Source of the DNA: Dacryopinax spathularia
Taxonomy: Eukaryota > Basidiomycota > Dacrymycetes > Dacrymycetales > Dacrymycetaceae
NCBI GenBank assembly: GCA_037974965.1
Contig: JBBPFI010000009.1
Coordinates: 434,001-498,000 of the forward strand
Direction of reading: 5' to 3'
Length of the DNA stretch: 64,000 nucleotides
Every line of letters starts with the position of its first letter. Within the stretch, counting starts at the first letter, position 1. This document shows, piece after piece, positions 1 through 23,000 of the stretch. The translations under genes were made by a program, and so were the position numbers. The notes under the pieces are model-generated. The model was given only the letters and a program-made list of their open reading frames with translations. It was not told the origin of the DNA and did not search any database.

Positions 1-1083
1 CAGCGTTGAAGCTTTCTGGGCTAAGACCGGCTCGATGCAGCAAGGCGGCAAGATGAGCCAACATAGTTGTGTTGTTTGACGCATTATCTGTTGTAATCCA
101 GCCGACCTCGTTGATAATGTCCATCTCCTCGAGGAAACCAAAGAGTATAAGAGCAAGCGTTTCTCCAGTATGAGACCCATGAATGATCCGAAAGCCGATA
201 AGATCGCTTTTCAGGACCCATTTTGAATCGGTGACAACAATGTAATGGGCTTTGGCGCTGAGATAAGAACGCATCGCCCCATCACTCCAAGCATCCACTG
301 TGATGCTCTTTCGGGCTGCTGTTGAATGGAGGCGAGCCTTGATCCGTTCCTTTTCTTCTGCCATTGCACTCATAGCTGTTTCTGCTAGAGCTTTGCGGCC
401 AGGTAGATCACGTATTCCTGTTTCTGGGCGCAGCAGGCGAACAAGATCCTTGAGTTCCGGGCGGTCCACGGTTGTGAATGGTAGATCAAGTGCAGCAACT
501 AGCCTGAGGACTGCTTGCTGGAGCCGAGTTGGTGTGTATCGCTCAACTGGTACAAGATGTGCATCTAGACCGGTTTGCTGGCTGGCGCTTGTGGGGGAGA
601 TGCCAAGACGGGCTTCCTCCTCATACTTCTTCCACAAGTTGGGATGACGCTGCTGGAGATGACGTCGAAGGGAGCTTGTACCAGTCTTTGGACCCATTCG
701 ACCCGCAGAAGATGGATAATTTGGAGTGCTCTCCCGGCGTGCTCTGCACATGACTCAGTATAGGCAGATATGAAGAGGCATTACAATGCGCACCGGCAAG
801 CCAAGCACCACCGAATCATCTCTTTCCCCTCTGGCTCTGAGTAATACCTATGGATTGGCACCGTGTCTCTTCCAACCCGAGTGCGCTTGGCTACTGGAAT
901 CTCAATGTCTGAGTCTTCGCTCGGAGCTGCGCTGCGTTTGCTGGCTATGGCTTCTTGGCTTGTACCGGTACCAAGAAAGCTAATTTCTGGTATATATGAG
1001 CTGGGCCAGTGGGAGACAGCTGTCAGCGTACCATCATCATCAAACTCTCCATCTGGAATTGGGCTAAGAGAGCTTCGGCTCAT
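1..1083 (-). CDS. hAT-family transposase, N-terminal part
   Basis: This is a cut-and-paste transposase with an N-terminal BED zinc finger. I read exon 1 as 1083-794, an intron at 744-793 (GT-AG on the minus strand) and exon 2 from 743 to the edge, giving about 344 visible residues. Removing the intron joins a CxxC pair (WCLACR) to a histidine pair (HLQQRH), the C2H2 layout of a BED finger. Further on are VDAWSDG and TTDNASNN, which match the first two acidic catalytic regions of hAT transposases; the third lies beyond the edge. The start is the first ATG in frame, and an acidic, Ser-rich stretch precedes the finger. No break was seen in the visible part, so the element could be intact. Confidence 0.85.
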
Positions 1084-1185
1084 TGATTTGGTTATGCAGG
1101 TACTGCGTTGCTACTGGAATGTGGAGGAAAATGTGCGAAAGTTGATGAAAAATGGAATCTAATTCTTGCATCATGCCCACTATGC

Positions 1186-1329
1186 AGGACCAGTCCTGAA
1201 CCGGTCCAAACCGGTCCTGAACCAAATGCAGCTCCTGGGAAGCAGCAGTCCTGGTCTGGTCCTGGTCTGGTCCTCAGACCAGGCTGGACCATGGGACCGA
1301 CAGTCCTTATGGTCCGGTTTGGACCACTT
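1186..1329. repeat. Subterminal GGTCC/ACCGG repeat cluster of the hAT element
   Basis: About 140 bp are built from GGTCC, GGTCTGG, CCGGT and their complements in both orientations, for example near 1200, 1215, 1255, 1275 and 1310. Short repeats just inside the end are where hAT transposases bind (the AAACGG words of Ac are the known example). The cluster ends about 10 bp from the inferred terminus. Confidence 0.6.
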
Positions 1330-1339
1330 GCCATCCCTA

Positions 1340-2266
1340 TTCTCGTTACAGAAAGGGGCGTTGTTGTTACTCAAATTGTGTGTGCAAGATTGGCATTAAG
1401 TCAAAACCGACTCAGATATGCAGCCAATAAGCGGGTTTATACTTCTACAAAAAGCTCTCTTGTGGGCCTAATACAGACTTTTCAAAAACGAGCTATGGCC
1501 GACTATGCTTGCCTATCATTGGCTTGGCAACGCATAAGGGTCCTTGAAGAGACCGCTTTCAGCGGCATAGGGACCGATGGAGCAAATCCGCTTCCACGGA
1601 TGGTAGGACGAAGCAATTTCCACCCGTCGAGTTGCATTGCCCCAGAACGTGATTTCGTGTTGCCGAGCTTGGCGCCGAAACGCTGAGGAGCAGGGTTGTT
1701 GCTGTTCAGCGCGATATCCTTCATTATCAAAGTGACCTGTGATTCAAAGCAATTTCGTTTGCGATCCATCTAACCGAATAAAGCTCACCGATTTAACCGA
1801 CTTTCATGAGCCGCCTGTCTTTGCTGGTCCTGCACAGGGACGGTGCAATGGGAAAGTACAATCAGGAGCCGGCCCAGGAGGGTAGGATAGCAACCGAAAC
1901 AGGCGCAGGACGGAAGCCGGTTGAGCGGGGTGGAAGATGGTGTAGCTTTAGAGGAGGATCACACCCATGAAGTCGCAGGGCTGGAGGACCTGACGAGATG
2001 CAGCGGCTGTCTTCTTTGGTGCGCTTTCCGGCCCAACGCCGTCTCCGCAATTGGAGCTGATACCGTGCCTAGACGACTGGTACTTCGAAGCGAACGATAA
2101 GAAGTCCATCAGGATACCACACCGTACGTTGATCGGTCAGATTAATCCCGGACCGGCGAAGGAAAGGTTTGTACCAAGTCGGTCCGGCTAAGAGAACCCT
2201 GAATACTTACACCTTACTGGAAGATACGATTTAAGGCGTCACTGCAAAATTGCTGGAACAAGTCGT
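1340..2266. other. Intergenic stretch without recognised features
   Basis: The stretch lies between the hAT terminus and the 8.6-kb transposon. Only short unsupported open frames are present, and I see no RNA gene, repeat or conserved motif. Confidence 0.5.
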
Positions 2267-2268
2267 TA

Positions 2269-2387
2269 TTGCTGCTTACGTAATTCATGGCGCGCGCCGT
2301 GCTGAGCAGTTTTTCCAAAAAAAAGGGCCAATTTTCGGGGAGCCATATCTCGCCCAAATCACCATATTTTTCTTTGGTGCAAAGAGG
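2269..2387 (+). repeat. Left terminal inverted repeat of the 8.6-kb transposon
   Basis: This pairs with the reverse complement of 10785-10901. The first ~40 bp are almost identical in the two copies, and the match weakens inward to about AAAGAG. It contains the palindrome GGCGCGCGCC at about 2289. Confidence 0.85.
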
Positions 2388-2491
2388 AAAGTATGTCGTG
2401 GGGGTAAGACAAAGGGCACGGGATGACTAAGGAGTTGTTATCGCGGCTGATTCAGAAGATACAAGGAATGACGTGAGGATGACCTTGGCGG

Positions 2492-2524
2492 AAAATTGAC
2501 GCTGGAATTTCGTTGTTGATTTTC
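2492..2524. repeat. Dispersed palindrome, copy 1
   Basis: The layout is AAAATTGAC, GGAATTTC, GTTGATTTT. The left arm is one of the more diverged. It lies about 230 bp upstream of the transposase start. Confidence 0.7.
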
Positions 2525-2755
2525 AACTAACTGCAGACCAAGATTCCTGGAACCGACTCTGAGGGCACCATATAAGTTTAGAGGGGAACTGCTGTTGTGG
2601 TGGGTTGGTGCAGAAGCTATGGGGCGAGACTATACATCACGTGTTGTTTGCACGGCAGGCGTGTCGTTCACGCTCAGGGTGTCATATCCGGTCTCAATGT
2701 TCGTCCACCAACAATCGATTCACTTTACAACTCTGCTTATCTGTAACATCATATC

Positions 2756-3921
2756 ATGGGCGGCATTCGAGTCACAGAGCCGGTCAAGGAAATTGTAATT
2801 CGGATGAACGTGGCACAAGTACCAATAGAAGACATTATCACCTATACCGGCATATCTAAAAGAACCATCCAACGAATAGTCGAATACCATCGCAAGTACG
2901 GGACTGTGGCAGCTGTACCATCGGGATTGGTTGGAAGGCCACCTATGTTGAATGAGGAGGACAAGGCAGTACGTAGAACAGCAATGTCCATGACCAATAC
3001 TGATGTATTCTAGTTCCTGTACAGCGCTATACAGCGTGCACCGGATCGTTACCTGGACGAATTGGTAGAAGCGCTCGAGAACTTTCAAGGTGTCAAGATA
3101 ACTGAGGCCACCTTGTCAAGATACTTGTCTAGTATGAACATAACAATGAAGCAGGTGCGCACACACTGCACACGGAAGAGTCAACACTCACGAGATGCGC
3201 TAGATCACGAAAGCGGCTATTGAGCAAAGTGAGGAAGCGCGTGCTCAATTCAAGTACCGTATGGGGTTGCTCTATACTCCAGAGCAGTTGGTATTTGTCG
3301 ATGAAAGCTCGATCGATCGACGTTCGACGTTTCGAAACAAGGCATGGGCGCTTAGAGGCCAAAGGGTCAGGAGGTTGTGTTTTTTTGTACGAGGCAAGCG
3401 GTACGTGTATATTCTGGACCTCATCTTTCTCCGCTCACTATTTCCAAGATACTCTGTCCTTCCTGCTATCTCGCTTGATGGAGTCATCTGGTTGAAGATC
3501 GTGGAGGGGTCGTTTGACGCCATTACCTTCGCCGAATTCATTGACGGCCTCCTTGAGAACATGAACCCGTACCCCGGGCGAAACTCAGTCGTTGTCATGG
3601 ATAACTGCCGAATCCACAAGGCAGAACTCATCAGGGAGATGGTAGAAGCTCGGTAAGGCAAGAAGAAAACTGTTACGCTTCCGACTCACGTTTGGTAGGG
3701 GCATGCGTCTGGAATATCTACCCGCATACTCACCAGACTACAATCCGATCGAGCTTCTTTTCTCGTACCTCAAAGGTACTCTGAGAAGAAACCATATACT
3801 TGTTCGGAACGCAATGCTCAAAACGGATGACTTCGATATCTATCGGACCTTACATGAGCTTGTCTGGGAGGTACCTGCTGAGCACGCGGAGGCATGGTAT
3901 AAACGGTGTGGATATCATTAG
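2756..3921 (+). CDS. Tc1/mariner-type DDE transposase (DD34E)
   Basis: This cut-and-paste transposase is read as five exons: 2756-2968, 3014-3154, 3204-3400, 3449-3652 and 3699-3921. All four introns are GT-AG and frame-preserving, giving 325 residues, the usual Tc1/mariner length. Residues 1-70 form a helix-turn-helix DNA-binding region (ISKRTIQRIVEYHRKYG, then GRPP). The DDE_3 catalytic domain follows, with VFVDESS, VVVMDNCRIHK and YSPDYNPIELLFSYLK. I count 34 residues between the second Asp and the Glu, the Tc1 DD34E spacing. No stop or frameshift interrupts the spliced reading frame, so it may be active. It is the only recognisable transposase between the large TIRs and fits their TA target, so I infer it mobilises the whole 8.6-kb element. 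Confidence 0.9.
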
Positions 3922-3934
3922 GAACTAGCTAGTA

Positions 3935-3968
3935 GAAATCAACAGTGGAATTCCAACTTTGATTTCAC
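3935..3968. repeat. Dispersed palindrome, copy 2 (most symmetrical)
   Basis: The arms are GAAATCAA and TTGATTTC around a perfect GGAATTCC centre. It lies just after the transposase stop and overlaps the last codon of the convergent gene at 3965. Confidence 0.85.
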
Positions 3969-4653
3969 AATTCGGGTACAGGAATAAGGGACAGTACCCG
4001 ATCAACCTGCGAGGCAGGTACAAGCGTGGAGACAACCCGAAGAATGTCCTGCCAGGTGCATCCGTCCGTTACCACCTTGTGTAGCTCTTGAAGCTTGCGA
4101 TAATCAAGGTGTGCAGCAGTAACGAGCGCCTTCTGGATCGGAGGAGAAAATACAAGAACATTCTTTCGCTTGTGCGTGCCCCACCATTGCTCCGCAGCCG
4201 TACGGTCTGAAAACGAGGCACAGTTGGCGTGCGGACAGTGCGCAACGAGGTGTTTGTAGTCGTCCCTTGATAAATGTATCAGAATGACCAGTGGGCTGGC
4301 TACCAGGCAAAACTCACCAAGTCCCATAGTAGATGTCACTCCAAAGTCCCACCGCAACGGCATAAAACTTGGGCCTTTGGCTTGCCGAAGGTGTGATAGT
4401 GACTCGCACATTTACAGGCGAGACACTACCATACGAAGGGGGTGCACTTGTGTCATCTTGCTGGCGAGCGATGAGCTGGTCAATGGTAAACCCATTCAGG
4501 TGGATCTAGAAGTGCATGAGCGCGGTTTATCAGAAGAGGGGCCGTGCATACCAAGTCTAACATAGCCGCCCACACGTCCCTCATGTCCGCTTCCGAATGG
4601 ATTGTAGCCTGTCGCAGAATGCTTATCACGTCTTCCTTGCAGAGCTGAGACAT
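3965..4653 (-). CDS. Small protein with RNase H1 N-terminal (viroplasmin-like) domain
   Basis: Four exons read by eye on the minus strand (4653-4552, 4505-4416, 4367-4318, 4265-3965) give 180 residues without a stop. The middle reads FYAVAVGLWSDIYYGTW, then YKHLVAHCPHANC and FSDRTAAEQWW. This is the pattern of the RNase H1 N-terminal hybrid-binding domain (Pfam Cauli_VI/RNase_H1_N), which grips RNA-DNA hybrids or double-stranded RNA: an aromatic-VAVG start, a GIY-like turn followed by W, then Phe and Ala-x-x-Trp. No RNase H catalytic domain follows; the remaining ~80 residues are helical and unrecognised. It is convergent with the transposase, with 43 bp between their stop ends. Domain assignment rests on the exon 3/4 splice, which restores the W codon. 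Its role in the transposon is unknown. Confidence 0.65.
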
Positions 4654-4800
4654 TTTTGGCAGAACAATCGTCCAGCTACGTACACCTAGAGACCTTTTAG
4701 CCCGTTGCCAGGATACTCAAGCGTTCGACGGCTGAATAGCTTTTGCTTACCTACGAGTATGCTGGCAACTGCTATGAAACGTTGTTTGACAGCGAACTGA

Positions 4801-4834
4801 CAAAATCAACAGCCGAATTTTGTTCTTGATTTTT
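4801..4834. repeat. Dispersed palindrome, copy 3
   Basis: CAAAATCAAC and CTTGATTTTTG flank CGAATTTTG. It lies in the gap between the divergent genes starting at 4653 (-) and 5072 (+). Confidence 0.75.
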
Positions 4835-5071
4835 GCCGTCTATAGTCCGCAAGGTAGCAAGTAAGTACCAGTCACTCTAGAACAAAGGACCGGTTACGTG
4901 TCAACAGTCAGAGACAAAATGGGGGCGCAGTAATGTGACTGCTGAGGTAAGCAGGAGGATCATGGTCTCGGAGGCTGATCCCTACAGAGGTTCTGCCAGC
5001 GGATCGCCGTTACCTTACCATCGTCCCCATCACCAGTACCGGATAAGTCACTTTACCTACTGCTTGTGAAC

Positions 5072-7936
5072 ATGTCTCGGAGCAACAAGGGCAAGAAAGA
5101 TCAAGCGGCCAAGGCAGGGAAGAAGACGAAGGCGACACAGGCGAGCGGCAAGGGAAAGGAACGTGAGGTTGCTGAAGCCGGGCCCTCGATGGGCCCACTG
5201 CTGAGGGAGGAGGAGGATGTGGAGGAGCCGGTTGTTGCGAAGGAGGTGGAATCTGTCGCAGTGCAGGAGACGGAGAAGGGTGCTCAGACCGAGGAGCAGC
5301 AGCGCCTGGAGGAGGCTTTGGGTCCAGGCCCGTTTTCATCGCAGGGGTCGCAGAAGAGCGACGACAGCAACTACGTGAGTAACTCTCCCATAAGGCTGCA
5401 TATATGCGCATATATGCTGACGCAATACCAGGCGGACATCACCCAAGTCAAACTGCAGGACTTGGACCGGCTTGAGCGCTCGGACGAAAGTCAGGACACG
5501 CTTCGCGTTGCTACCGTGCGGATCCCGATACCTACTGCAAGCGAGGTCGACTTCAGCTATGAGCACCGACATGCTCGCAAGCGTGGTCCTAGCAAGAATG
5601 CGGTGGACCAGTTAGTCATCGCCTTCAACACCATCGGTATCCGCAGGCGTCGGTATCCCATTGTCGTTGTCACCACCAGAGAGAACATCGACAATTGGGA
5701 CAAGATCAACGGTAATCGACTCTCTTCGGACAACCCTGCGACGCTCAAGAAACATATAATCTTCAAGCATAATGAGGAGGTCTGCGTCATCGCCGGCGCT
5801 ACTCGGATTATGGCGTGTCGCCGGTACTACGAGCAGCATTACCAGGACCTTAACCACGAGCATCCCTGGTGGTACGGGCATGTCTACCTTGTTGGTACGT
5901 ACAATGCCTTGGTATGCTTGATAGCCACTAATAACTTGGCAGACGACTTGATGAGTGCTCCGAATGTCTCACTGTACGACGCTCTTGCCTCCAACATCAA
6001 CCCCCCCGTGCGTGCTCCTACCGCTGGCGATGTCTGGTCAATCGCCCAAGGCTATGGACGCAGCGGTATGTACTCGGCGGAGGAGGTGGAGATGCTTATC
6101 GGCGCGTGCTTTGCAAGGCATCCAGGCACGATAAGGGTGTTCAAGGATCCTGTCTTCCATGGCATCGTCCCTTGGCTGTTTGAGCATCCTGCGTGGAACG
6201 ACCTCATGAGTTTCAACGCGATCAACGAGATGTGGGCGTCTGAGGGCCGTGATGTAAGTTCATTCGCTTGACATGGCAAAATCAAGAGCTGAATTGCAAT
6301 GTAGATTTTCTACACGCATGCCTTGTGGATGGGCAACTTCTTCCTGCGTCCTGGCCGATGGGTCTTTGGTGCAGATGGCTCAAGCTATCGAGAAATCTTC
6401 GACTGGCGTTTCATGCGTATCTGTACCGATGTCTTTCTGGAGTGGCAAGAAGCGCTCACCACATGGGTCGAGAACCCTCTTCGCAAGCCTACGGAAAAGT
6501 TCAAGGACAAGTACTCCGCCCGCATTATCAAGCGCTGTGTCGATATCTACTGTACCCAGGACCCGTCGTCCCTCCCCTTCTTCGTTCCGGCAGATCATCT
6601 CAACTACGGCGACCAATTCGTGCAAGTCATCAGGGAGTTCTTCGTTCAATGGCCTCAAGCAATCATCCTGACTCCGCGCATCGTTGCAACCATGGGCAAA
6701 TATCTGGACACCTTCGAGGACATCTTCAAGGAGGTAAGAAATCAACATCTGAATTTCAACGTTGATTTTGACTTGCTCTAGGTTGCTCGCTGGGCGGTTC
6801 CGGTCTACAAACGTGTTAGCAAAGGTACCGGCTCTCAAGCTGATGGCTCCCGTCCGCCCACCTTCGCTGTCCTCCATGCCCAGAAGCGGCTTATGGAACG
6901 AGATAATGATGCTCTGCTAGACGCCTATATAACCTATGTAGGTGTCCAGGGTTGCATTCCTACTGTAAGCTGACAACGATCAACAGTTCGCCAATTCGCT
7001 AAGCCCGTACACCTGGATCGTTCCCTCTCTTGTCATGCGCCGTGCGCTTTCCTATGTTTACAGCGTCAAGCTCAACGCTGTCCGGTACGGGAAGGAAGCG
7101 CCTGTGACCAAGGCCGAACTTCGCAAACACATTACTCCCTGGGTGCGCTGGAAGCTTCGATGCTGGCAGGATCCTCAACATGCGGAACGGGAGGATCCAC
7201 CACCTATCAACGATCTTCTGAAGGAGTGGTGGCCCATTATTCAGGCCTCGCTCGAATACCGTGATCCCGATTGGATAGGAAAGAAGGAAGGACAGTCTTC
7301 TCGTATCGAGCCGATCATCATGAAGATCATGGATGCGCATACGACCGCCATGGAGTATTTCCCCTTACTCTTAACGGATCCTGACTGGTACGAAACGTAT
7401 GTGGAGGCAACGACATATATATTGCCTTCGGATACCGAAACTGACCCGGACGCCCTGGCGCTTTCTTATCGGCATAACGTGGGTGTTCCTCGTGATCCCC
7501 CTACCGAGGAGACTGCACTGAAGATCCCGGATGACTTCTTGGACGTGTTCGAGCAATTGCGTACGTAAATTTGTGCTAGTTCGTTCACATGCTAACCATG
7601 ATATTCAGGTGCGCTGGATCATCTTCCCCCGGAGTTCGAATGTAAACGGGAACCTGAGACCCAGCGCCTGAAAGGGCTTGTACAGGAGCACGTCCTCAGC
7701 ACCATTCCCGAGGTATCCCGGACTTTTGCTTCCCAGCTTTTTGAAGCGGTACGTACCACTCTTCTTCAGTAGAACTAGCACTAACATAGAAACAGGCTAT
7801 TCAGAAGGTGGTTCAGCACCAGCTTCAGCGCGAGATGGAGATACAATTCGGCTTTGAGCCCGAGGTAGCTCCTTCCGCACGCCAGCGGGGCATTTTCAAG
7901 AAACAGCAGCGTGTCCGTGCACGTCCCAAGATGTAA
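5072..7936 (+). CDS. Transposon-borne protein with a ParB/Srx-like domain
   Basis: Eight exons (5072-5374, 5432-5894, 5943-6253, 6305-6733, 6782-6937, 6987-7560, 7609-7748, 7796-7936) join in frame into 838 residues; all seven introns are GT-AG and 46-57 bp. Residues 1-100 are charged and low-complexity. From about residue 126 the order of elements follows the ParB N-terminal (ParB/sulfiredoxin) fold: VRIPI, an Arg-rich turn, AVDQLVIAFNTIGIRRRRYP with PIVVV, then VIAGATRIMACRRYY (the ParB box GERRxxA region). After the second intron come VYLVDDLM and ALASNINPPVRAPTAGDVW, which resembles the NIQR-type segment of ParB. In bacteria such domains bind CTP and load onto parS or cut DNA. The remaining ~540 residues are unrecognised. 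Introns 3 and 4 each contain a copy of the dispersed palindrome. Function unproven; the match is by eye. Confidence 0.7.
6277..6310. repeat. Dispersed palindrome, copy 4 (intron 3 of the ParB-like gene)
   Basis: CAAAATCAAG and TAGATTTTC flank TGAATTGCAA. It spans the 3' splice site, so its last bases are coding. Confidence 0.65.
6738..6770. repeat. Dispersed palindrome, copy 5 (intron 4 of the ParB-like gene)
   Basis: GAAATCAAC and GTTGATTTTG flank TGAATTTCAAC. It fills most of a 48-bp intron (6734-6781). Confidence 0.8.
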
Positions 7937-8058
7937 CGAGTTTCTGTACTTCCGATTAGTCTCTCCCATGTTTCTGTCCCGAAAGCGAGTGTTATAGTGT
8001 TCTGCTAGCTGTACTGTCTGCCATTGAATGCCATGATCCTATTATGGTAGCCCGACAT

Positions 8059-8090
8059 CACGTGAATGATGTGAAGAGCACGTGAATGAT
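8059..8090 (+). repeat. Short direct repeat
   Basis: CACGTGAATGAT occurs twice, at about 8059 and 8079, just downstream of the ParB-like gene. Its role is unknown. Confidence 0.5.
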
Positions 8091-8150
8091 ATTATTATTG
8101 CCTATTCAGGCAACTATCCTACTTACAAGAGGAATTGGAATTACGCCGGA

Positions 8151-8183
8151 GAAATCAACTTTGGAAAGAAGTTGTTGATTCTC
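8151..8183. repeat. Dispersed palindrome, copy 6
   Basis: GAAATCAAC and GTTGATTCTC flank TTTGGAAAGAA. It lies between two convergent genes. Confidence 0.75.
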
Positions 8184-8215
8184 GCTAAGCGATTAGGGGT
8201 TATAGGTATATCTAC

Positions 8216-8250
8216 CAAAATCAACAGTGGAAAACCAACGTTGATTTTGC
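8216..8250. repeat. Dispersed palindrome, copy 7
   Basis: CAAAATCAAC and GTTGATTTTGC flank AGTGGAAAACCAAC. It lies 22 bp from the stop of the gene at 8272. Confidence 0.8.
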
Positions 8251-8271
8251 TTTGGTGGCGAGGATGACAGA

Positions 8272-10452
8272 CTACAGCTTTCCGTTGGTGGCAAATACTT
8301 GAGTGTCATAACGGGCATAGTTCAGAAGAAGAATCGCTGTTCCACGGAGCAGAGTGGGTGACAAAGTTGAACCGTATGCATCTAGGAGCTCGTCGACATT
8401 TGAAAGAGCGGCCAATTCGTTGAGTCGATAGAATCCAGCAGAATTCAAGCCTTCCAGGAACTGTAAGAATGGACGGCTATCGTGAGTTCGCGCTGGACTG
8501 CCATCGACGTGCTCTTCTAACCAGTCTTTGATCATTGGGTAGCGAATCGCATTGTTGATGACATTGCGAGGTCCCGGCTCCTGCGGTACCATGGGGAAGC
8601 CTTGGAATGATGTAGGAGCCCCCCACATTGGTGCTGCCCATGGTGGTGACATTGGAGCAAGAGCTGGAGGTGGAAAGAAGGGGCCAGAGGCATTTGAAAC
8701 AGTTGCAGTTTGGAGCGGATCATCAGCACGCACAGGCTGACGTGCTTGGCGTACAGGTCCCGGGACGACGACTGCCGCTCAGAGTGATCCATTTGTCAAG
8801 AAGATTCTTGGGCGGTTGTGTTTCGGTGATATCTGGAACCTTGCGTTGCTGCGATGTCATCAGCTCACTCTACTCCAATACAGAAGAAAGCTCAACCGAC
8901 CAAGGCAAGATTCCACAATGACCAGTCTGCATCCGAAGGCTCATGATGAATGCCCCCAGGAAGAAGCACATCTGACCGGCCATGTAAGTGACAATGGTTG
9001 GCGCTCTTCAGTAGGCGAAATTGTTGGGCGTCGAGGACTGAACTTTTGGCCCGATCTTCATCGCTATCATCGCTTCCTGGCGAGGTTGTTCTTTTCTTCT
9101 TTTTGGACTGTAGAATCATGAGTAGGGGGACGACAATATGTGCTTTGTCGCTCACGTTCCCTTTCTCTTTCTTCACTTCGGCCTTGCTATTTGAGCCGGA
9201 GTTGTTTGCGTTTGTTAGAATAACATAGACTGTTGTGGGTGTCGACCGCTTGGGCATGGCAGGAGGTTTTGCACCGCCAGTCCTTGCTTTCTTGGCCTGC
9301 TTGGTCCAGGCGGTATGCGCTCGTGAGTAAGCTTGTTCGGCTTTGCTGATTTCTTTCTCAGTACTGCTTCTCCATTGCTGGACCATACCGATGAATGTCG
9401 CAGGTGAATCCAGTAGCACAGGCATTTCTTTGACCTTTGCAGTCGACAAGGTATAGGCCAACGAAAGACCTTCAGGAAAGAGATCGAGGAGCTTTCCAAC
9501 CTCGTTGCGCAGTGCTTTCAGACCTTTATCGGAGGAAAGTGTGAAGAGACGTGCGGCAGAGCCGACCATGATCTTGTATGGGATCGATTCTGGAGGACAA
9601 TTAGCATAGATAAACGTAATAAGTGAAGAAACACGCACCGATCTCTTCCTCTTCCGGCTTCCCATCACTTGCCGTGTCTTCAATATATGCCGACAGCATA
9701 CCAGACTCCTCATATGTGTCTTCTATCTCATTCGCCGAATGATCCAGACCAGGCGGCTCGATATTCTCCTCAGTCGAGTCGGCAGAGAGCGCTCCATCGG
9801 CTTTCCTTTTCATAGCGGATGATCTTTCCCCTGCTTTCATCGCTGGTGCAACTTGGGGCAAGGTGAGGGACGAATCTGGCGTTAGGCTGCTCTCGACCTG
9901 TGTGCGCGTTACAAGACCTTGCTTGTGGAATGTCTTGATAAGCGCTCGTAGATCTTCGGGATTGTCCGGCAGTACCAAGCTTGTATCGGCCATATGAACC
10001 TCAGAATCAAGTTGCGTGCTCATCGGCTTCGGAGTTGAGCTTAGAACTGTCGACCAGAATGGGCTCGTGTTCCATCCGCCCTCGTCATCCTTGAAAACTT
10101 CAGCTGAGTCCACTCCAGCACTTGCCGACCGCTCCGTGTCAAGATGAAACTTGTTCTTGAGCGAGTCGTCACCACAATGGGGCGTCGTCTCATCGTTCAT
10201 ACAGCTAGATTTGGTAGGATCCGCATCCGAAGCCTTTGAAGAGCTATTCTTGAAAAGGGGCCGAGGTTTTGGTTGCTGACTCGCAGGTTTGCTGCTTTTT
10301 GATGTTGTAAAATGGTCGGCTGAACTGACATTTTTGGCGGCTTGTTTCGATCTTGTCATGATACCAACATCATCTGTTGGTACAGGGGTTGATCGAGCTG
10401 CCTTGCGAGCCTCTTTAGGCAACCTCGATATCTTAGTCTTCCGATTCCCCAT
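8272..10452 (-). CDS. Uncharacterised transposon gene with possible SAM-like C-terminus
   Basis: Three coding blocks are visible on the minus strand. Block 1 (10452-9639) is Ser/Thr/Lys-rich and disordered; it starts MGNRKTKISRLPKEARKAAR and has an acidic end. A GT-AG intron (9590-9638, with a CTAAT branch site) joins it in frame to block 2, from 9589 to roughly 8980, which has a helical part and a basic KKKK patch. Block 3, about 8770-8272, is Pro-rich and ends in about 75 residues (DWLEEHVDG to LLLNYARYDTQVF) with the W, L and G spacing of a SAM-like helical bundle. The join between blocks 2 and 3 could not be resolved by eye, so the gene may have small exons there or be damaged. It converges on the ParB-like gene. 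I do not recognise the protein, and the SAM reading is weak. Confidence 0.5.
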
Positions 10453-10647
10453 TGAGTGGTTTGGGGTAAGGTTGAGGCCAAATTTGGCCGAGACCTGATT
10501 GCACTACTACGTGTCACGCGGAAGCAGTTGCCTCAGCCCACTTCAAATCGACGGTAGCCTGCCATGCAACAATGGTCAAGTTAGTTCTTCTCTGGCTATT
10601 CCGTGCCCTTCTAGATAGCCTTTCATTCATCCTGTGCGGCCTTCCTA

Positions 10648-10680
10648 GAAATTCAGAATGAAATTCCGCTCTGAATTTTT
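10648..10680. repeat. Dispersed palindrome, copy 8 (diverged)
   Basis: GAAATTCAGA and TCTGAATTTTT flank GAAATTCC. It has the same architecture as the other copies with altered arms, about 105 bp inside the right TIR. Confidence 0.5.
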
Positions 10681-10784
10681 CCCCGAAACCCTGGAGCACG
10701 GGAAAACCAATGCGCATGAGGCAGCAATCTAAACACAGAATAAACACTGTGGGGCGCTTCGTAGTTGTATCTATAACATTCCCA

Positions 10785-10901
10785 CTCTTTGGAACAAGGA
10801 AAAATATCGAGAATTCATCGAGATATGGCTCCCCGAAAATCGGCCTTATTTTTCGAAAAAGTGCTCAGCACGGCGCGCGCCATGAATTACGTAAGCGGCA
10901 A
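10785..10901 (-). repeat. Right terminal inverted repeat of the 8.6-kb transposon
   Basis: This is the reverse complement partner of 2269-2387. It ends CGTAAGCGGCAA directly before TA at 10902-10903. Confidence 0.85.
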
Positions 10902-11109
10902 TAATACCCTGATCCGGAGGAAGCGAGAGCAATGTCTACTCCGGACTGCAGTGTGGAAAGGCATCTGCGGCACTGCGGAGAAAGCGATTCTCGTACTGAT
11001 ACTCGTCAGAGCACGTCTACTGAAACGTCAGGACACGTGGATCGCGAGCCACATCAACGACGGTATATCAATAGGATATTGGGTATTACTAACATGGCAT
11101 AGAAGGAGA

Positions 11110-16842: not shown

Positions 16843-17304
16843 TGTGAGGAGTATTCTCCTCCTGAGCGGGGAATGAGGCAACAGGTGGTTACTCGAGGCC
16901 GATGGACCCTGAGCGCCGAATCTCGGAACCAGTAGTCGCGACCGGGTCTCAGAACGGGATCTAGGCCTGGCAAGCTCGGCTCGAGATCTCGGAACGGTTA
17001 GCCGGTCCGGGCGGAGACTGAAATCTCGAGGCGAGATTCCGGTATCGTCCGGAGTGAAGGTAAAATTTCGTACTTGCCCTAGGCCTTACATATATCGTAG
17101 CGATAGGTACGAAGTTAGGCACGAATAACCACTACGATCGTGAAACCCATCTCGTTCGCCCCACCGAATCGTCCCGCACCGCCTTCTCGAAACGAAATAT
17201 CGTTTCGGTACTTCGATCTCATCGTCCCATTTCCCCTCGATCTTTTACCTGCCCATCGCACCTAAGATCTCTCCTGCACACCTGGGGAAGGAAAAGATCA
17301 CACA
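16843..17304 (+). repeat. 5' LTR of the gypsy element
   Basis: The LTR is 462 bp, practically identical to 31235-31696. It contains several CTCGGAAC/GAGATCTCG words typical of this element. Confidence 0.95.
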
Positions 17305-17306
17305 AA

Positions 17307-17324
17307 TTGGAGCCCAACGCGAGG
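17307..17324 (+). promoter_or_regulatory. Probable primer-binding site of the gypsy element
   Basis: TTGGAGCCCAACGCGAGG begins two bases inside the 5' LTR, the usual place for a tRNA primer site. The tRNA was not identified. Confidence 0.5.
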
Positions 17325-17618
17325 GGATCTAGCTACGCAGCCTGCAGTCACTCTTCAGGCACCGGCTGGAAGAGCCGACGAAAGTCGACTCGACAGGTAT
17401 AGATTAACACGGCGGATAGGCGGCAGACTCGTCGTACGACGGCACAGAAGGCCACGGAGCGAGAGGGGACGTCATCGACAGCGGCGTCACGAATACCGCT
17501 CCGCAGAGCGGGGGAAGGTCGAACCGACACATCCTCGACACTCTCTTCCAATTCCACGTCCGAAGAATCGTTTCAAGATCTCGGTCCGAGACTACGTATA
17601 AGGGAGAGTTCGGTAGCA

Positions 17619-20039
17619 ATGCCGCCGACCCCACCAGCCCCGCCGGGGGGAAATGAGGAATTCGTGAATCCGGCGATGCGCATGCCGACCCGGAACAGTC
17701 CAGCCGCCCCCCGCTTTGACGGCACCGCCCTCGGGCTATCCAGGTACTTCAAGGATCTGGAATTGCTTGCCGAGGCGGCAGGACTGTCGGATTCCCAGAA
17801 AATCGAGTATGCCACACTCTACCTCGACGCCCAGACGGCAGAACTGTGGGAGACGCTCCCCACTGCTAGGCAGGTGCCGGCGGATTACCCGGCGTTCAAG
17901 AAAGCGGTCATGAGGCTTTACCCCGGATTGGATCGAGAGAGGCGCTTCCGTTTGGACGACCTCGATCGGGTTACGGAGGGTAGAAACCTGACAAGGTATT
18001 CCTCGCGGGATGACTTGGGGCGGTACTATAGGGAGTTTCTCCCGGTAGCTACGTTCCTGAGGGAGGGAGAAAAGGTGTCGGCGAGAGAGGTGAACCAGGC
18101 GTTCATGAGGGGCTTCGAGCCGACTTTCAGGGCCCACATATTGAACCGACTGATGCTCCTCGACACTTCTCATCCCCTCGACCAACCGTTCGACTGGGAA
18201 AAGGCGCGCGAGGCTGCCGAATACCTTCATAACGGAGCAATGGCTGGGGTGATCCCCGATGTAGGAGCGGGTGGAGGGGCTCCGACGGGAAGCTTCTCTC
18301 AACCGGGGATGCGAGTAAAGACGGAAATCCAAGAAGTTGCACCGGTTCTGGAAGAGCGAATGCGTAGGATTGAGGAAACGCTCACGCTATTGGCGAACCG
18401 AGACACCGGCCCGAGATTTCAACCCGAGAACTCGGGGCCAGCTTACCGCGGTGGGAACGCGCCGTATCCCGGTCCTAGAGTGCGGTTCGACGCCCAAGCG
18501 GGAGGTGGGGCGCCCAATGCGGCAGGGCCCGGTCCGCAAGCTTCGTATAGGCAACCTCCGCCGCACTTCAACCTCTCTTGTTTCTTCTGCGGGGGGCAAG
18601 GACATCGCACCTTCCAGTGCCAAACGGCGGCCGCGTATATCAGGGACGGGAAATGCCGAAGGGATGAGGCGGGTAGGACCATGTACCCTGACGGCTCGTA
18701 TGTCACGCGCGATCCGACGGGGACGTTCAAAGAGAAGATCGATGCGTACCACGAACGGCAGACGCGCCAGGAGGCAGGAAAAGGCGATCGACAGACGGCG
18801 TCGGTCAACCTTTACGAAGTAATGGAACTGGCCGACAACTACGTGTTAGACGTGGACGTGGGACCTCCGCAGGCGGCGTACGCCTATGGAAACATCGATC
18901 TCCGGGATTCGGATGAAGACGCTTTGGAGCTCGAAAGGCTACAGGTCATGATTAACGAGAAAAAGCGCGCGGTTGAAGAGAAACGGAAGGGCCGAGCTGG
19001 GAACGGAAACTCGGTTCGAGAACCTGGACGCGCCCCGGGGCCGAGAACTCGGACCGAGGGAACACGGCTTGTCCCAGAGGTGGTGATCACGCGGTCAAAC
19101 CGGCCGGCAGCCATTGCGAAGGATCGTGCGGCTACGATAGAGGAACTGCCTGAAACGGAAGAAGGGCGGCCGCAGAGCGAAACAACCAGGACGGAACCGA
19201 CGGAGCGGCAGCCCGGCAAGCCTATGAACGCAGAGGCAGGCCGCCCAACCGACAAGCCGCAGGAACGAAAGGAACCCCAACATCAGTACAAGATCCAAAC
19301 TCCGATCGAAGACGCAACGGTAGTGGCTAGAGTCCTGGAAAGGTCCTTGGACACCGCTGTCTCGTTGACACAGAGAGAGTTGCTAGCCATCGCCCCTGAT
19401 CTGAGGAAGAGGATCAAGGAAATGATTACTACTCGCCGTATCCCCATGGGTGACGTAAAAGGGGTAGAGGTTGAGGAGGCGCCGCCAGACACAGCACGCT
19501 ATCACAACGTTTACTTTGTTGAAGCGGGAGGCAACCCAGAGAGAGACAGAAAACCCAAGATCGTGGTGGCTCAAGACTCGATCCCGCTTCGAATTCTTGA
19601 TGCGAGCGTGGGAGGAGTTCTTGGGGTAACGGCGGTCCTGGATAGTGGAGCTCAGATCTGCGCCCTTCGCAGGGACCTTTGGGAGGCGACGGGGCTTCCG
19701 TGTTCTACGGACAGAGTATGGGTAATGGAAGGAGCTGCGGGGGATCTGTCGCGCACCGCCGGACTGATGGAGAATATCGGCGTGACGATCGGGAGCTGCA
19801 CCGTCTATCTCCAAATCCACGTGGTCGAGGAAGCGCCGTTCGAATTGCTCCTGGGGAGGCCCTTCTTCGTCCTCACCTCCTGCAGGACGGCGGATTCCCT
19901 TGACGGGACCCAGCACATCACACTTCACGATCCGAACTCGCATAAGACGATTACTCTACCAACCAAGGAAAAGTCTTCTAAAGCGAGGACGCATCTGAGG
20001 GGCAGGCCGCCTCAAGTTGAGGTCTTAGAGGATTTTTGA
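17619..20039 (+). CDS. Gypsy gag and protease polyprotein
   Basis: An 806-residue frame holds a retrotransposon gag region (about residues 40-200), a zinc knuckle CFFCGGQGHRTFQC near residue 325, a long basic and acidic linker, and an aspartic protease of retropepsin type (VLDSGAQICALRRDLW near residue 675). It overlaps the next frame at 20036-20039, so pol expression is probably by the frame-change or read-through mechanism used in this family. Confidence 0.92.
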   Translation: MPPTPPAPPGGNEEFVNPAMRMPTRNSPAAPRFDGTALGLSRYFKDLELLAEAAGLSDSQKIEYATLYLDAQTAELWETLPTARQVPADYPAFKKAVMRLYPGLDRERRFRLDDLDRVTEGRNLTRYSSRDDLGRYYREFLPVATFLREGEKVSAREVNQAFMRGFEPTFRAHILNRLMLLDTSHPLDQPFDWEKAREAAEYLHNGAMAGVIPDVGAGGGAPTGSFSQPGMRVKTEIQEVAPVLEERMRRIEETLTLLANRDTGPRFQPENSGPAYRGGNAPYPGPRVRFDAQAGGGAPNAAGPGPQASYRQPPPHFNLSCFFCGGQGHRTFQCQTAAAYIRDGKCRRDEAGRTMYPDGSYVTRDPTGTFKEKIDAYHERQTRQEAGKGDRQTASVNLYEVMELADNYVLDVDVGPPQAAYAYGNIDLRDSDEDALELERLQVMINEKKRAVEEKRKGRAGNGNSVREPGRAPGPRTRTEGTRLVPEVVITRSNRPAAIAKDRAATIEELPETEEGRPQSETTRTEPTERQPGKPMNAEAGRPTDKPQERKEPQHQYKIQTPIEDATVVARVLERSLDTAVSLTQRELLAIAPDLRKRIKEMITTRRIPMGDVKGVEVEEAPPDTARYHNVYFVEAGGNPERDRKPKIVVAQDSIPLRILDASVGGVLGVTAVLDSGAQICALRRDLWEATGLPCSTDRVWVMEGAAGDLSRTAGLMENIGVTIGSCTVYLQIHVVEEAPFELLLGRPFFVLTSCRTADSLDGTQHITLHDPNSHKTITLPTKEKSSKARTHLRGRPPQVEVLEDF

Positions 20040-23000
20040 GCGAGGGCCGATCGAAGGCGCTGGCCGTAAGCAGCGCGACAGTTTCGCCAAGAAAGGCCGG
20101 TAAACATACGACATATACCCACGAAGCTTCCATCCATTTATTCGAATCGAGAATACAAAACGACAAGCCGACGCGAGAGCTCGGTCCAAAAACACTGCAA
20201 AAAGGCGTACAGCCGGTCAAACAGAAAAACATATCTTCCTTCTATTTCCCTACCAATCAGGCCGACGGGCAAAACACCTCGTTTCTCAGACGGCTCCTGC
20301 CGTTATTGTATCCCGTGGAGGCCGAACCGGAGGAATTTCTAAGAGCACGGACCTACGGAACACTGTTCGGCTTCAGCAGGAGGGTTGGGGTGTTCGCAGC
20401 TCAGAAAGGGGACGGGCGGCCGAAACCGGGAAAGAAATATAAGCCGGTCCACCGGAGGGTGGTGCCGGTGGCGACAACCTTGCCGGAACACTTCCGTGTA
20501 GGGCGGCACTTCCCGAGTGACCCTCTAGAGGGGATGGCGCCTTTACCAACCTCGCCGCCAGAATTCGAACCGAGAGGTAGGGTGACGCGGGAGCGATGGG
20601 ACGCGCTACGGGTCGGAGAGGACGGGTTTCTTTCCCCGGAAGAAGTGAAGCTCGTCGCATGGGTGATGACCCAGCATGAGAAGGCGTTCGCCTTTACGGT
20701 GGAAGAGCGAGGAGCCTTCAAGGACGAATACTTCGAGCCCGTAGTGATCCCGACTGTGGAACACATTCCGTGGGCAGAACGGAACATGCCTATCCCGCCG
20801 GGGATATTCGATGAAGTATGTGGGATAATGAAGGACAAACTCGACACAGGGGTATACGAACCCTCGAACTCCTCGTACAGGAGCAGGTGGTTCTGCGTGG
20901 TGAAGAAGGACGGAAAGTCGCTCCGCATAGTACACGATCTACAGAAACTCAACGCGATAACGATAAAAGACGCCGCTGTACCTCCGATGGTAGAGCAGAT
21001 TGCGGAATCCTTCGCAGGGCGAGCGGGGTATTCGATGTTCGATCTCTACGTTGCATTTGACCAGAGAAAGCTCGCACCGGAATCCAGAGATCTTACCGCG
21101 TTCCAATCCCCTTTGGGTGCGTTGCGGTTGACAACACTACCGATGGGATGGACGAACTCAGTCCAAATACTTCATGGGGACGTTACCTTCATCTTGAGAG
21201 ACGAGATTCCGCATTCTGCGGTCTGTTTCATAGACAACATAGGGTGTCCGGGCCCCAAATCTCGATACGAGATCTCGCCGGGAAGATACGAAACGATACC
21301 TCAAAACGAAGGAATCCGCAAGTTTGTATTCGAGGTGTGCGAAACGGCGCACAGGGTGCTACAGCGAATCGAATACGCAGGGGCCACGGTCTCGGGTTCG
21401 AAGTCCCACATCTGCGTACCGGAGGTGGTTATCTTAGGACACAAGTGCACGTACGAAGGAAGAGTGCCGGATGAGTCCAGGGTACAGAAGATACGGGATT
21501 GGCCGGCCTGCAAATCAGTCACGGAAGTCAGGGGATTCTTAGGGGTGGCAGGAGTCGTGAGGATGTTCATCAAGGACTTCGCGAAGCATGCCCGACCACT
21601 GGTGAACCTCACCAAAAAGGACGCAGAGTTTGAGTGGGGGGAGAAGGAACAGCGAGCCATGGATAAGCTGAAAGAGCTCGTCATCAAGTCGCCGGCCTTA
21701 CGACCAATCGATTATGCTAGCGGGCGGGTGGTGATATTGGCAGTCGACTCGTCGTTCATCGGGGTGGGGTACGTGATATCCCAGGTTGGAGAGGACGGAA
21801 AGCGATACCCGTCAAGGTTCGGATCGATCACGTGGAACGAGGTGGAGGCAAGGTACTCGCAGGCGAAGTTGGAACTGTATGGGCTATTCCGGGCGCTGAA
21901 GGCCACTCGACTTTATCTCATTGGTGTACCGAACCTTAGGGTGGAGGTGGATGCGAAGTATATCAAGGGTATGCTCAACAATCCCGATATACAGCCCAAC
22001 GCGACCATAAATCGATGGATTGCGGGGATTCATTTGTTTTCGTTCGACCTGGTCCACGTACCGGCTGACCGGCACAAAGGGGCGGACGGACTATCTCGTC
22101 GGGAAACTGCCCTTTCCGACCCTCCGCAGGAGTCGCCAGGCCAGGTAGAAGAGTGGCTGGACGTGACAATGGGATTTCTTCTCGAGATCTCGAACCGAGA
22201 TCTCGGGAACGATCCCCGGACCGAGGTTGCCGCGACCCGAGGACCGGTGCACGTTCTCCAGATTAGCGGTGAAGATCTCCTGCCTCGAACATCGAAAAGC
22301 CGAAAGAGAGACGAGCGGCTAAAGGAGATCCAGGCGTTCCTCGAGTCGGGAAAGCGACCTGAAGCTCAGTCCGAGAACTCGTTCCGACAATTCGTAAATA
22401 GTGCGACGCGCTACTTTGTCAGAAATCAGAAGTTATGGCGGAAGGAGGGGCACGGAAGGCACCAGCTGGTCATCCCCTATGAGAAGAGGCTAGCGCTGCT
22501 TCGTCAGGCACACGACGACCTCGGGCACAAAGGGGTGTACGCGGTGCGGACGAGGTTGTTGGCGCGGTTCTGGTGGCCTGGCTTGCTGACGGACGTGAAA
22601 TGGTATGTGAAGACGTGTCATGAGTGCCAGGTGCGCCAGACGAGGAGGATCCACATACCACCTACCACTCCTCGGCCACACAGACTGTTCGGGAAAGTGT
22701 ACGTCGACACCATGTCCCTGCCCCCGGCGCGATACGGGCCGGGCCGACGACAATACTCCTCCTTCGTACACGCCAGGTGCTCCCTCACATCGTGGTGCGA
22801 GGGGAGGATGCTCATGAGGGAGGACGCGGGAACGTTGGCTAGCTTCCTTTTCGAAGAAGTCATCTGTAGGTGGGGCGCGATCTCAGAGATCGTGACCGAC
22901 AATGGGGCTTCGTTTGTGGCAGCGGTGAACGAGCTGAAGGACCGTTACGACGTCACGCATATTCGGATATCCCCCTACAACTCGCAGGCGAACGGCGTAG

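Follow-up and report, generated by a model that had tools for sequence, protein, structure and literature searches.

A four-gene Tc1-type DNA transposon with conserved palindromic sites in the basidiomycete Dacryopinax spathularia

Structure of the element and its genomic copies

A 64,000 nt stretch of the Dacryopinax spathularia genome (assembly GCA_037974965.1, contig JBBPFI010000009.1, positions 434,001–498,000; hereafter the window) holds at positions 2269–10901 a Tc1-type (IS630-Tc1-mariner) DNA transposon that carries four genes. The element is a single TA-flanked unit of 8.6–8.7 kb with genes A to D (Table 1). An initial annotation made from the sequence had reported inverted ends of about 118 bp with TA outside and a DD34E transposase, and both were borne out. 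The left terminal inverted repeat is 87 % identical to the reverse complement of the right over 118 columns (blastn), with TA on both outer sides. The product of gene A matches Pfam DDE_3 (E=2.9e-31) and carries the catalytic triad D151-D235-E270, in which 34 residues separate D235 and E270. No tandem repeats were found inside the element, and no known RNA family was matched in it at gathering threshold.

Table 1. Features of the window element (window positions) and its further copies in the genome (contig:positions)
Feature	Position	Strand	Remarks
TA target copy, left	2267–2268	none	
Left terminal inverted repeat, 118 bp	2269–2386	+	common to E2 and E3; outer part also in E4
Palindromic site 1	2493–2522		upstream of gene A
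Gene A, transposase, 325 aa	2756–3921	+	exons 2756–2968, 3014–3154, 3204–3400, 3449–3652, 3699–3921
Palindromic site 2	3936–3965		between 3′ ends of A and B; final base also ends the stop codon of B
Gene B, 196 aa, 3 exons	3965–4653	-	exons 4653–4552, 4505–4318, 4265–3965
Palindromic site 3	4803–4832		between starts of B and C
Gene C, 838 aa, 8 exons	5072–7936	+	exons 5072–5374, 5432–5894, 5943–6253, 6305–6733, 6782–6937, 6987–7560, 7609–7748, 7796–7936; part common to relatives, residues about 127–255
Palindromic site 4	6279–6308		gene C intron 3; overlaps first 4 bases of exon 4
Palindromic site 5	6739–6768		gene C intron 4; exact match
Palindromic site 6	8152–8181		between 3′ ends of C and D
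Palindromic site 7	8218–8247		between 3′ ends of C and D; exact match
Gene D, 4 exons	8272–10452	-	exons 10452–9639, 9589–9156, 9107–8901, 8848–8272
Variant palindromic site 8	10649–10678		upstream of gene D; shared by E1 and E3
Right terminal inverted repeat	10785–10901	-	
TA target copy, right	10902–10903	none	
E2, full copy	C2:1112086–1128046		interrupted within gene D by long terminal repeat (LTR) retroelement
E3, full copy	C2:2527082–2535827		opposite strand
E4, ends-only copy, 723 bp	C8:696044–696766		

A genome query with the left end returned three inverted pairs and one partial match, which were resolved as the copy in the window (E1) and three further copies, E2 to E4. The end motif TATTGCYGCTTACRNAATTCATG plus TA, at up to 3 mismatches, occurs at 8 places in the 29.2 Mb host genome; 8/8 fall into four inverted pairs with zero solo ends, TA lies outside every one of them, and a reversed control of the pattern gave 0 matches. 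Aligned with the left part of E2, E1 is identical at 6201/7595 bases (82 %); with E3 the figure is 5641/8505 bases (66 %). Genes A–D have the same order and orientation in E1, E2 and E3. Three unrelated loci thus share both ends, the gene order and the TA flanks, so the element is almost certainly one mobile unit, as had been proposed. Copies with both ends, all four genes and TA had been named as support for that proposal, and E2 and E3 are such copies within the same genome. Movement of only the outer part, or ends that never co-occur, had been named as evidence to the contrary; the former is seen only in E4, the expected non-autonomous case, and the ends always co-occur (8/8 paired). A nested or chance composite, in which a short Tc1 element and unrelated genes merely came to lie between two ends, is extremely improbable. 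An ends-only short copy does exist in E4, but the whole unit is common to three loci and the 8/8 end motifs stand in four inverted pairs at TA, by which the composite is refuted in this genome.

The flanks of E4 recur unbroken at C8:1029370–1029799 (72 % identity), a paralogous empty site with one TA where the E4 insertion stands between two. The ends have therefore moved by TA insertion. The flanks of E1, E2 and E3 (200 bases per side) matched only themselves, with no empty site within their own genome. The Tc1/mariner features of a DDE_3/DD34E transposase, terminal inverted repeats and a TA target duplication (the empty site being from E4 only) are present, and the usual, though not strictly defining, trait of a compact element with the transposase as sole gene is absent.

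The retroelement within gene D of E2 is about 7.26 kb long (locus L009, about 300–7564), with identical 714-bp repeats and, by eye, a 5-bp target duplication, CCTTG.

Gene content and selection

Gene A is open in all three full copies, and the introns of genes A and C are GT-AG in each. Among the best 120 of 411 protein matches to transposase A, the closest has 51 % identity at 93 % coverage, proteins of Tricholomella, Dentipellis, Amanita and Mycena have 45–49 % identity over 93–99 % of the length, and the named closest relatives are basidiomycete. The gene B protein has an RNase H1 N-terminal (Cauli_VI) domain (Pfam, E=1.8e-8); the gene appears open in the copies, exons 2 and 3 being stop-free and exon 1 judged by eye. 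For genes C and D, Pfam returned nothing at E of 1 or below. The gene D product may resemble a basidiomycete protein family that combines a ubiquitin-like part with a SAM-like C-terminus. The DUF3435 tyrosine-recombinase captain of Starships is not among the Pfam matches of the four genes, and no recombinase or kinase domain was matched in the B, C or D proteins. Queried against the genome, A, B and a D piece of 260 residues matched E1–E3 only.

Substitutions between the copies cluster at third codon positions in all four genes, which supports A, B, C and D as real genes. The three further spliced genes of the initial annotation are therefore upheld as genes; gene D, however, is frame-broken in the window and has an additional intron (9108–9155). 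Ratios of nonsynonymous to synonymous substitution rates (dN/dS, by NG86) were calculated for the pairs E1–E2 and E1–E3, with B exon 1 and D exon 1 (E1–E2) outside the figures. All four genes are under purifying selection, with dN/dS of 0.02–0.25 overall. For gene A the ratio is 0.021 to E2 and not computable to E3 (dS saturated, dN 0.065). The corresponding values to E2 and E3 are 0.098 and 0.105 for gene B exon 2, 0.184 and 0.25 for gene B exon 3, 0.143 and 0.114 for gene C, and 0.04–0.14 and 0.05–0.20 for the pieces of gene D, of which exon 3 is saturated to E3. Between E1 and E2, dS is 0.54–0.78 (0.66–0.67 for A and C), with B exon 2 apart at 1.44; between E1 and E3 it runs from 1.3 up to saturation.

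Each full copy has one visible gene lesion: in E1 a 2-bp deletion near 8753 that breaks the gene D frame relative to E2 and E3, in E2 the inserted retroelement, and in E3 a single in-frame stop in gene C. A programmed frameshift in gene D near 8753 was considered and rejected, E2 and E3 being open where E1 has the deletion.

Given that dN/dS is far below 1, genes B, C and D very probably serve the element. Positions 2269–10901 had been described as a cargo-bearing Tc1 element; the extra genes do lie within the unit, but for the same reason the word ‘cargo’ may mislead. Fungal elements with host cargo exist in the form of Starships, and by that precedent the three genes could be host genes caught between Tc1 ends and carried as passengers without a role. 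This is nevertheless highly improbable: neither B nor the D piece has a further genome copy, so no host donor is seen, and purifying selection acts on all four collinear genes across three copies, two of which have diverged to near synonymous saturation.

Palindromic sites of the element

The palindromes, together with the gene D frame lesion and the gene C family, go beyond the initial annotation. A 30-bp palindrome, AAATCAAC-N14-GTTGATTT, was first spotted by a repeat finder as short similar palindromes. At up to 3 mismatches the pattern has 7 matches in the window, all within the element, against 0.06 expected. Genome-wide it occurs at 27 places at up to 2 mismatches, and E1–E3 contain 8/8 of the exact matches, 5/7 of those with one mismatch and 4/12 of those with two. 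Sites 1–7 are collinear across E1, E2 and E3, some E3 sites standing at 3–4 mismatches; the right part of E2 has no palindromic site at up to 4 mismatches, and a counterpart of site 8 was not found there. Six of the eight E1 sites are entirely noncoding, and the other two extend into coding sequence, one by 1 base and one by 4.

The palindrome arms are conserved at 106/112 positions (95 %) to E2 and 92/112 (82 %) to E3, the centres at 74/98 and 57/98, and the other noncoding DNA of the element at 1217/1675 (73 %) and 1041/1945 (53 %), respectively. The half-site consensus (n=42) reads AAATCAAC-RNYN-GAA; its positions 3, 4 and 7 are invariant, and the spacing is constant at 14. Near-restriction to the element, conserved arms and an intergenic or intronic location make the palindromes look like the binding sites of a dimer. 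No palindromic site was found at the E4 locus at up to 4 mismatches. As E4 moved without any site, the palindromes are not required in cis for transposition, which favours a role in regulation or anti-silencing over one in cutting.

The palindromes could instead act as RNA hairpins in transcripts, for example as end or processing signals to which the RNase H1-type domain of gene B might bind. Such a domain binds RNA–DNA hybrids and double-stranded RNA, gene B carries one, and the palindromes lie in introns and in the gaps adjoining gene ends. The hairpin explanation was nonetheless rejected as improbable for lack of compensating changes in the 8-bp arms (0/8 pairs over 21 sites). Additionally, the arms pair no better than shuffles, the spacing never departs from 14, and repeats with gene C relatives but without a gene B match have palindromes as well.

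Gene C and its relatives

In genome searches gene C has distant relatives on contigs C17, C1, C6 (internal), C22 and C16, with E values from 9.6e-8 to 7.8e-6. Two of these as queries added C6:9192 (E=0.001) and C22:16841 (E=0.002), and the motif of the gene C family was recognized by eye in the C22 open frames at 17046–17705 (beside the 16841 match) and 21885–22925. The relatives thus occupy eight further loci. Three of these are on C22, and for two of them the assignment depends in part or entirely on visual recognition of the motif. Those on C1, C16, C17 and at C6:9192 are at most 12 kb from the contig starts, and contigs C1 and C16 start with telomere repeats; C22 is a 28-kb contig, and one relative on C6 is internal.

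These relatives adjoin palindromes of 30–32 bp that are specific to the lineage and are often just upstream of the gene: CATCACGAGCTCGCGCGCGAGCTCGTGATG in the lineage of C1, C17 and C6 (internal), GTGGGACGACGCACATGTTCGTCGTCCCAC in that of C16, CGTTAGAATACGTCGCGACGTATTCTAACG in that of C22 and GTTTGAACAAACAAGGTTGGATGTTCAAAC at the C6 contig end, where a second palindrome family of four is also present. On C22 the palindrome centres lie about 130–380 bp upstream of three gene C-like open frames. A uniform scan was made for 30-bp palindromes with at least 11/15 pairs and members at least 65 % alike, with three or more members counted as a family. Such a family was present in 8/10 regions with a gene C relative versus 1/14 controls (six 8.6-kb pieces of the window and eight loci). 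The one positive control, L026, carries a C1-type repeat fragment (98 % identical), and L024, with two members, carries another (94 % identical); L027 and one window piece have two members each, of other palindromes.

Private palindromes beside gene C relatives in otherwise different repeats point to protein C as the palindrome reader, and protein C is, by this sequence association, somewhat more probably than not the palindrome binder. A rival account accepts the element as real and has A, D or a host protein bind the palindromes, with C doing something else; for example, A or D may compact the long element and join its ends. Long Tc1-type elements transpose poorly, which a compaction system could offset, the exact palindromes are confined to the three full copies and spread across most of the element, and gene D has no recognized function. 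Yet A, B and the D piece have no further genome copy while gene C relatives elsewhere adjoin private palindromes, so that gene C is the only shared partner seen, and E4 moved without any palindromic site. Binding by A, D or a host protein is accordingly rather unlikely.

The repeats at L013 (130–8800), L014 and L015 (on C1, C17 and C6), L017 (C16) and L020 (C6 start) are mostly near contig ends and combine a gene C relative with a second long gene, whose family was not recognized. By eye this second gene has the conserved stretches FIGFP..H.FYLG and FPLAFTK.A.NIQ; three of its frames in L013 gave no Pfam match below E=0.1. The repeats are possibly an undescribed two-gene telomere-associated element. 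Also in L013, a subtelomeric open frame at 8754–9998 (minus strand) weakly matches OrsD (E=0.00045; 21.1 bits, where Pfam sets its cut-off at 26.6). Contig C22 (L016, L018, L019) contains tandem repeats of about 322 bp at 3000–4700, which are also found at C17:5000–7600. A further 30-bp palindrome, TGCCAAAAGTCTTGCGCAAGACTTTTGGCA, and its variants occur near the starts of two contigs as two copies 290 bp apart, at 6915–6944 and 7205–7234 of L017 and centred at 7119 and 7409 of L027.

The motif G-x-x-[RQ]-x-x-A is kept in 8/8 aligned gene C relatives. Weak profile matches, each in 1/8 members, were obtained to DGQHR (0.0024), a PHROG ParB-like partition protein (0.043) and DndB (0.14). Coming from three libraries, they point to one superfamily as a lead, and the part of gene C common to its relatives (residues about 127–255) may be weakly ParB/DGQHR-like on this basis, as a lead rather than a membership. 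A search of a protein collection that includes fungi gave no gene C homologue, whether with a single query or a four-sequence alignment; as the 8000 best word-sharing candidates were scored, relatives may have been missed.

Comparison with known systems

The initial annotation had stated that Tc1/mariner elements normally carry only a transposase, and had recognized no cargo-bearing type. The norm is indeed departed from here, but multi-gene Tc1 elements are already known in ciliates: according to passages of the reports, TBE of Oxytricha is a Tc1/mariner element with three open reading frames, all three genes having dN/dS of 0.1–0.3 (PMC4724952), and Sardine of Paramecium has up to four genes (PMC3464196). 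As far as those descriptions extend, TBE, Tec (Euplotes) and Sardine, Thon and Anchois likewise combine an IS630-Tc1-type DDE transposase with further genes within inverted ends, and extra conserved genes under purifying selection, a trait of the ciliate type, are present here as well. The further genes of the ciliate elements encode a zinc finger/kinase protein or a tyrosine recombinase, or are open reading frames of unassigned function. Scattered palindromes and a gene C-like protein do not feature in the same descriptions, although Sardine and Thon have palindromic ends. The host also differs, being a fungus here and a ciliate in the known cases. Ordinary fungal Tc1-like DDE_3 elements come close in the transposase (the 45–49 % identity above, among the best 120 of 411 matches). 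No multi-gene Tc1 element in fungi, and no palindrome-binding protein encoded by one, was found among the reports listed in searches of the open-access literature.

VANDALs are Mutator-like elements (MULEs), and the transposase here is DDE_3, not MULE-type. In passages of the report on Arabidopsis VANDALs, VANC motifs occupy noncoding regions, including introns of element genes, and differ between families (PMC5735166). The likeness lies in an accessory gene and element-specific short noncoding motifs that change together between families (PMC5735166). By the same account VANDALs have dense, often tandem arrays of a 9-base directional repeat as their motif, whereas here the motif is a 30-bp palindrome. 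No library search linked gene C to VANC. The G-x-x-[RQ]-x-x-A motif, the weak profile matches and the several palindromes near the gene are points of likeness to bacterial ParB-parS and the DGQHR/DndB superfamily. However, parS sites are about 16 bp and the present sites 30–32 bp, and partition makes little sense for an integrated element.

Proposed role of protein C

The favoured reading as a whole, a four-gene Tc1 element whose protein C binds the palindromes to control it, is given a probability of about 0.58. By analogy with its family, protein A would recognize the 118-bp ends and move all that they enclose into TA sites by cut and paste. The other three genes, B, C and D, would be retained as copies need them for persistence. 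Protein C would bind the 30-bp palindromes, which precede and separate the genes and also lie in two introns; in coating promoters and gaps it would control the expression of its own element's genes, and would probably keep the element open against host silencing. Relatives of gene C would act likewise on the different palindromes of other repeats. Anti-silencing as the purpose of protein C, for which the VANDALs are the analogy, is a possibility to which less than even weight is given.

Several observations weigh against this reading. Two one-mismatch and eight two-mismatch palindromes lie outside E1–E3 genome-wide, and a scan similar to the uniform one gave a loose three-member set outside the element, at 10902–37000 of the window. 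At the strict threshold E3 and locus L018 are without a palindrome family; in a looser look the E3 sites are seen by consensus only and L018 as one copy only. Gene C has no significant match to solved structures or Pfam families. ParB_N (PF02195) has no match in this genome and was matched in 11/14 control genomes, and the DGQHR profile has no genome-level match, only that to one relative at E=0.0024. Matches of similar weakness link single members to unrelated families (SLFN-g3 helicase 0.012, phrog_3375 0.04, SCO1431 family 0.069), and a single-sequence fold of gene C exon 2 was uninformative (predicted local distance difference test score, pLDDT, 33). The observed/expected CpG ratio is 0.86–0.93 in the copies and 0.98–1.20 in six other window pieces. 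Four other loci and the left flank have 0.78–0.90, and the middle part of the LTR element has 0.67. These values neither establish nor exclude an escape from silencing.

Tc1/mariner elements serve as the textbook example of a minimal transposon, and a fungal one keeps three extra genes under strong selection; the superfamily can thus build complex elements outside ciliates. Should protein C prove to be the palindrome binder, element-encoded, sequence-specific self-recognition would have a case outside plants, in which the lineage-wise change of protein and palindrome would make co-evolution directly testable. More tentatively, and with the odds slightly against it, the gene C family may represent an undescribed eukaryotic module, a ParB-superfamily-like protein with private copies of a palindrome of about 30 bp, present on unrelated selfish elements (the Tc1-type transposon and the subtelomeric two-gene repeats) and re-specified in each lineage. 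If so, the module would let each element recognize and control itself alone.

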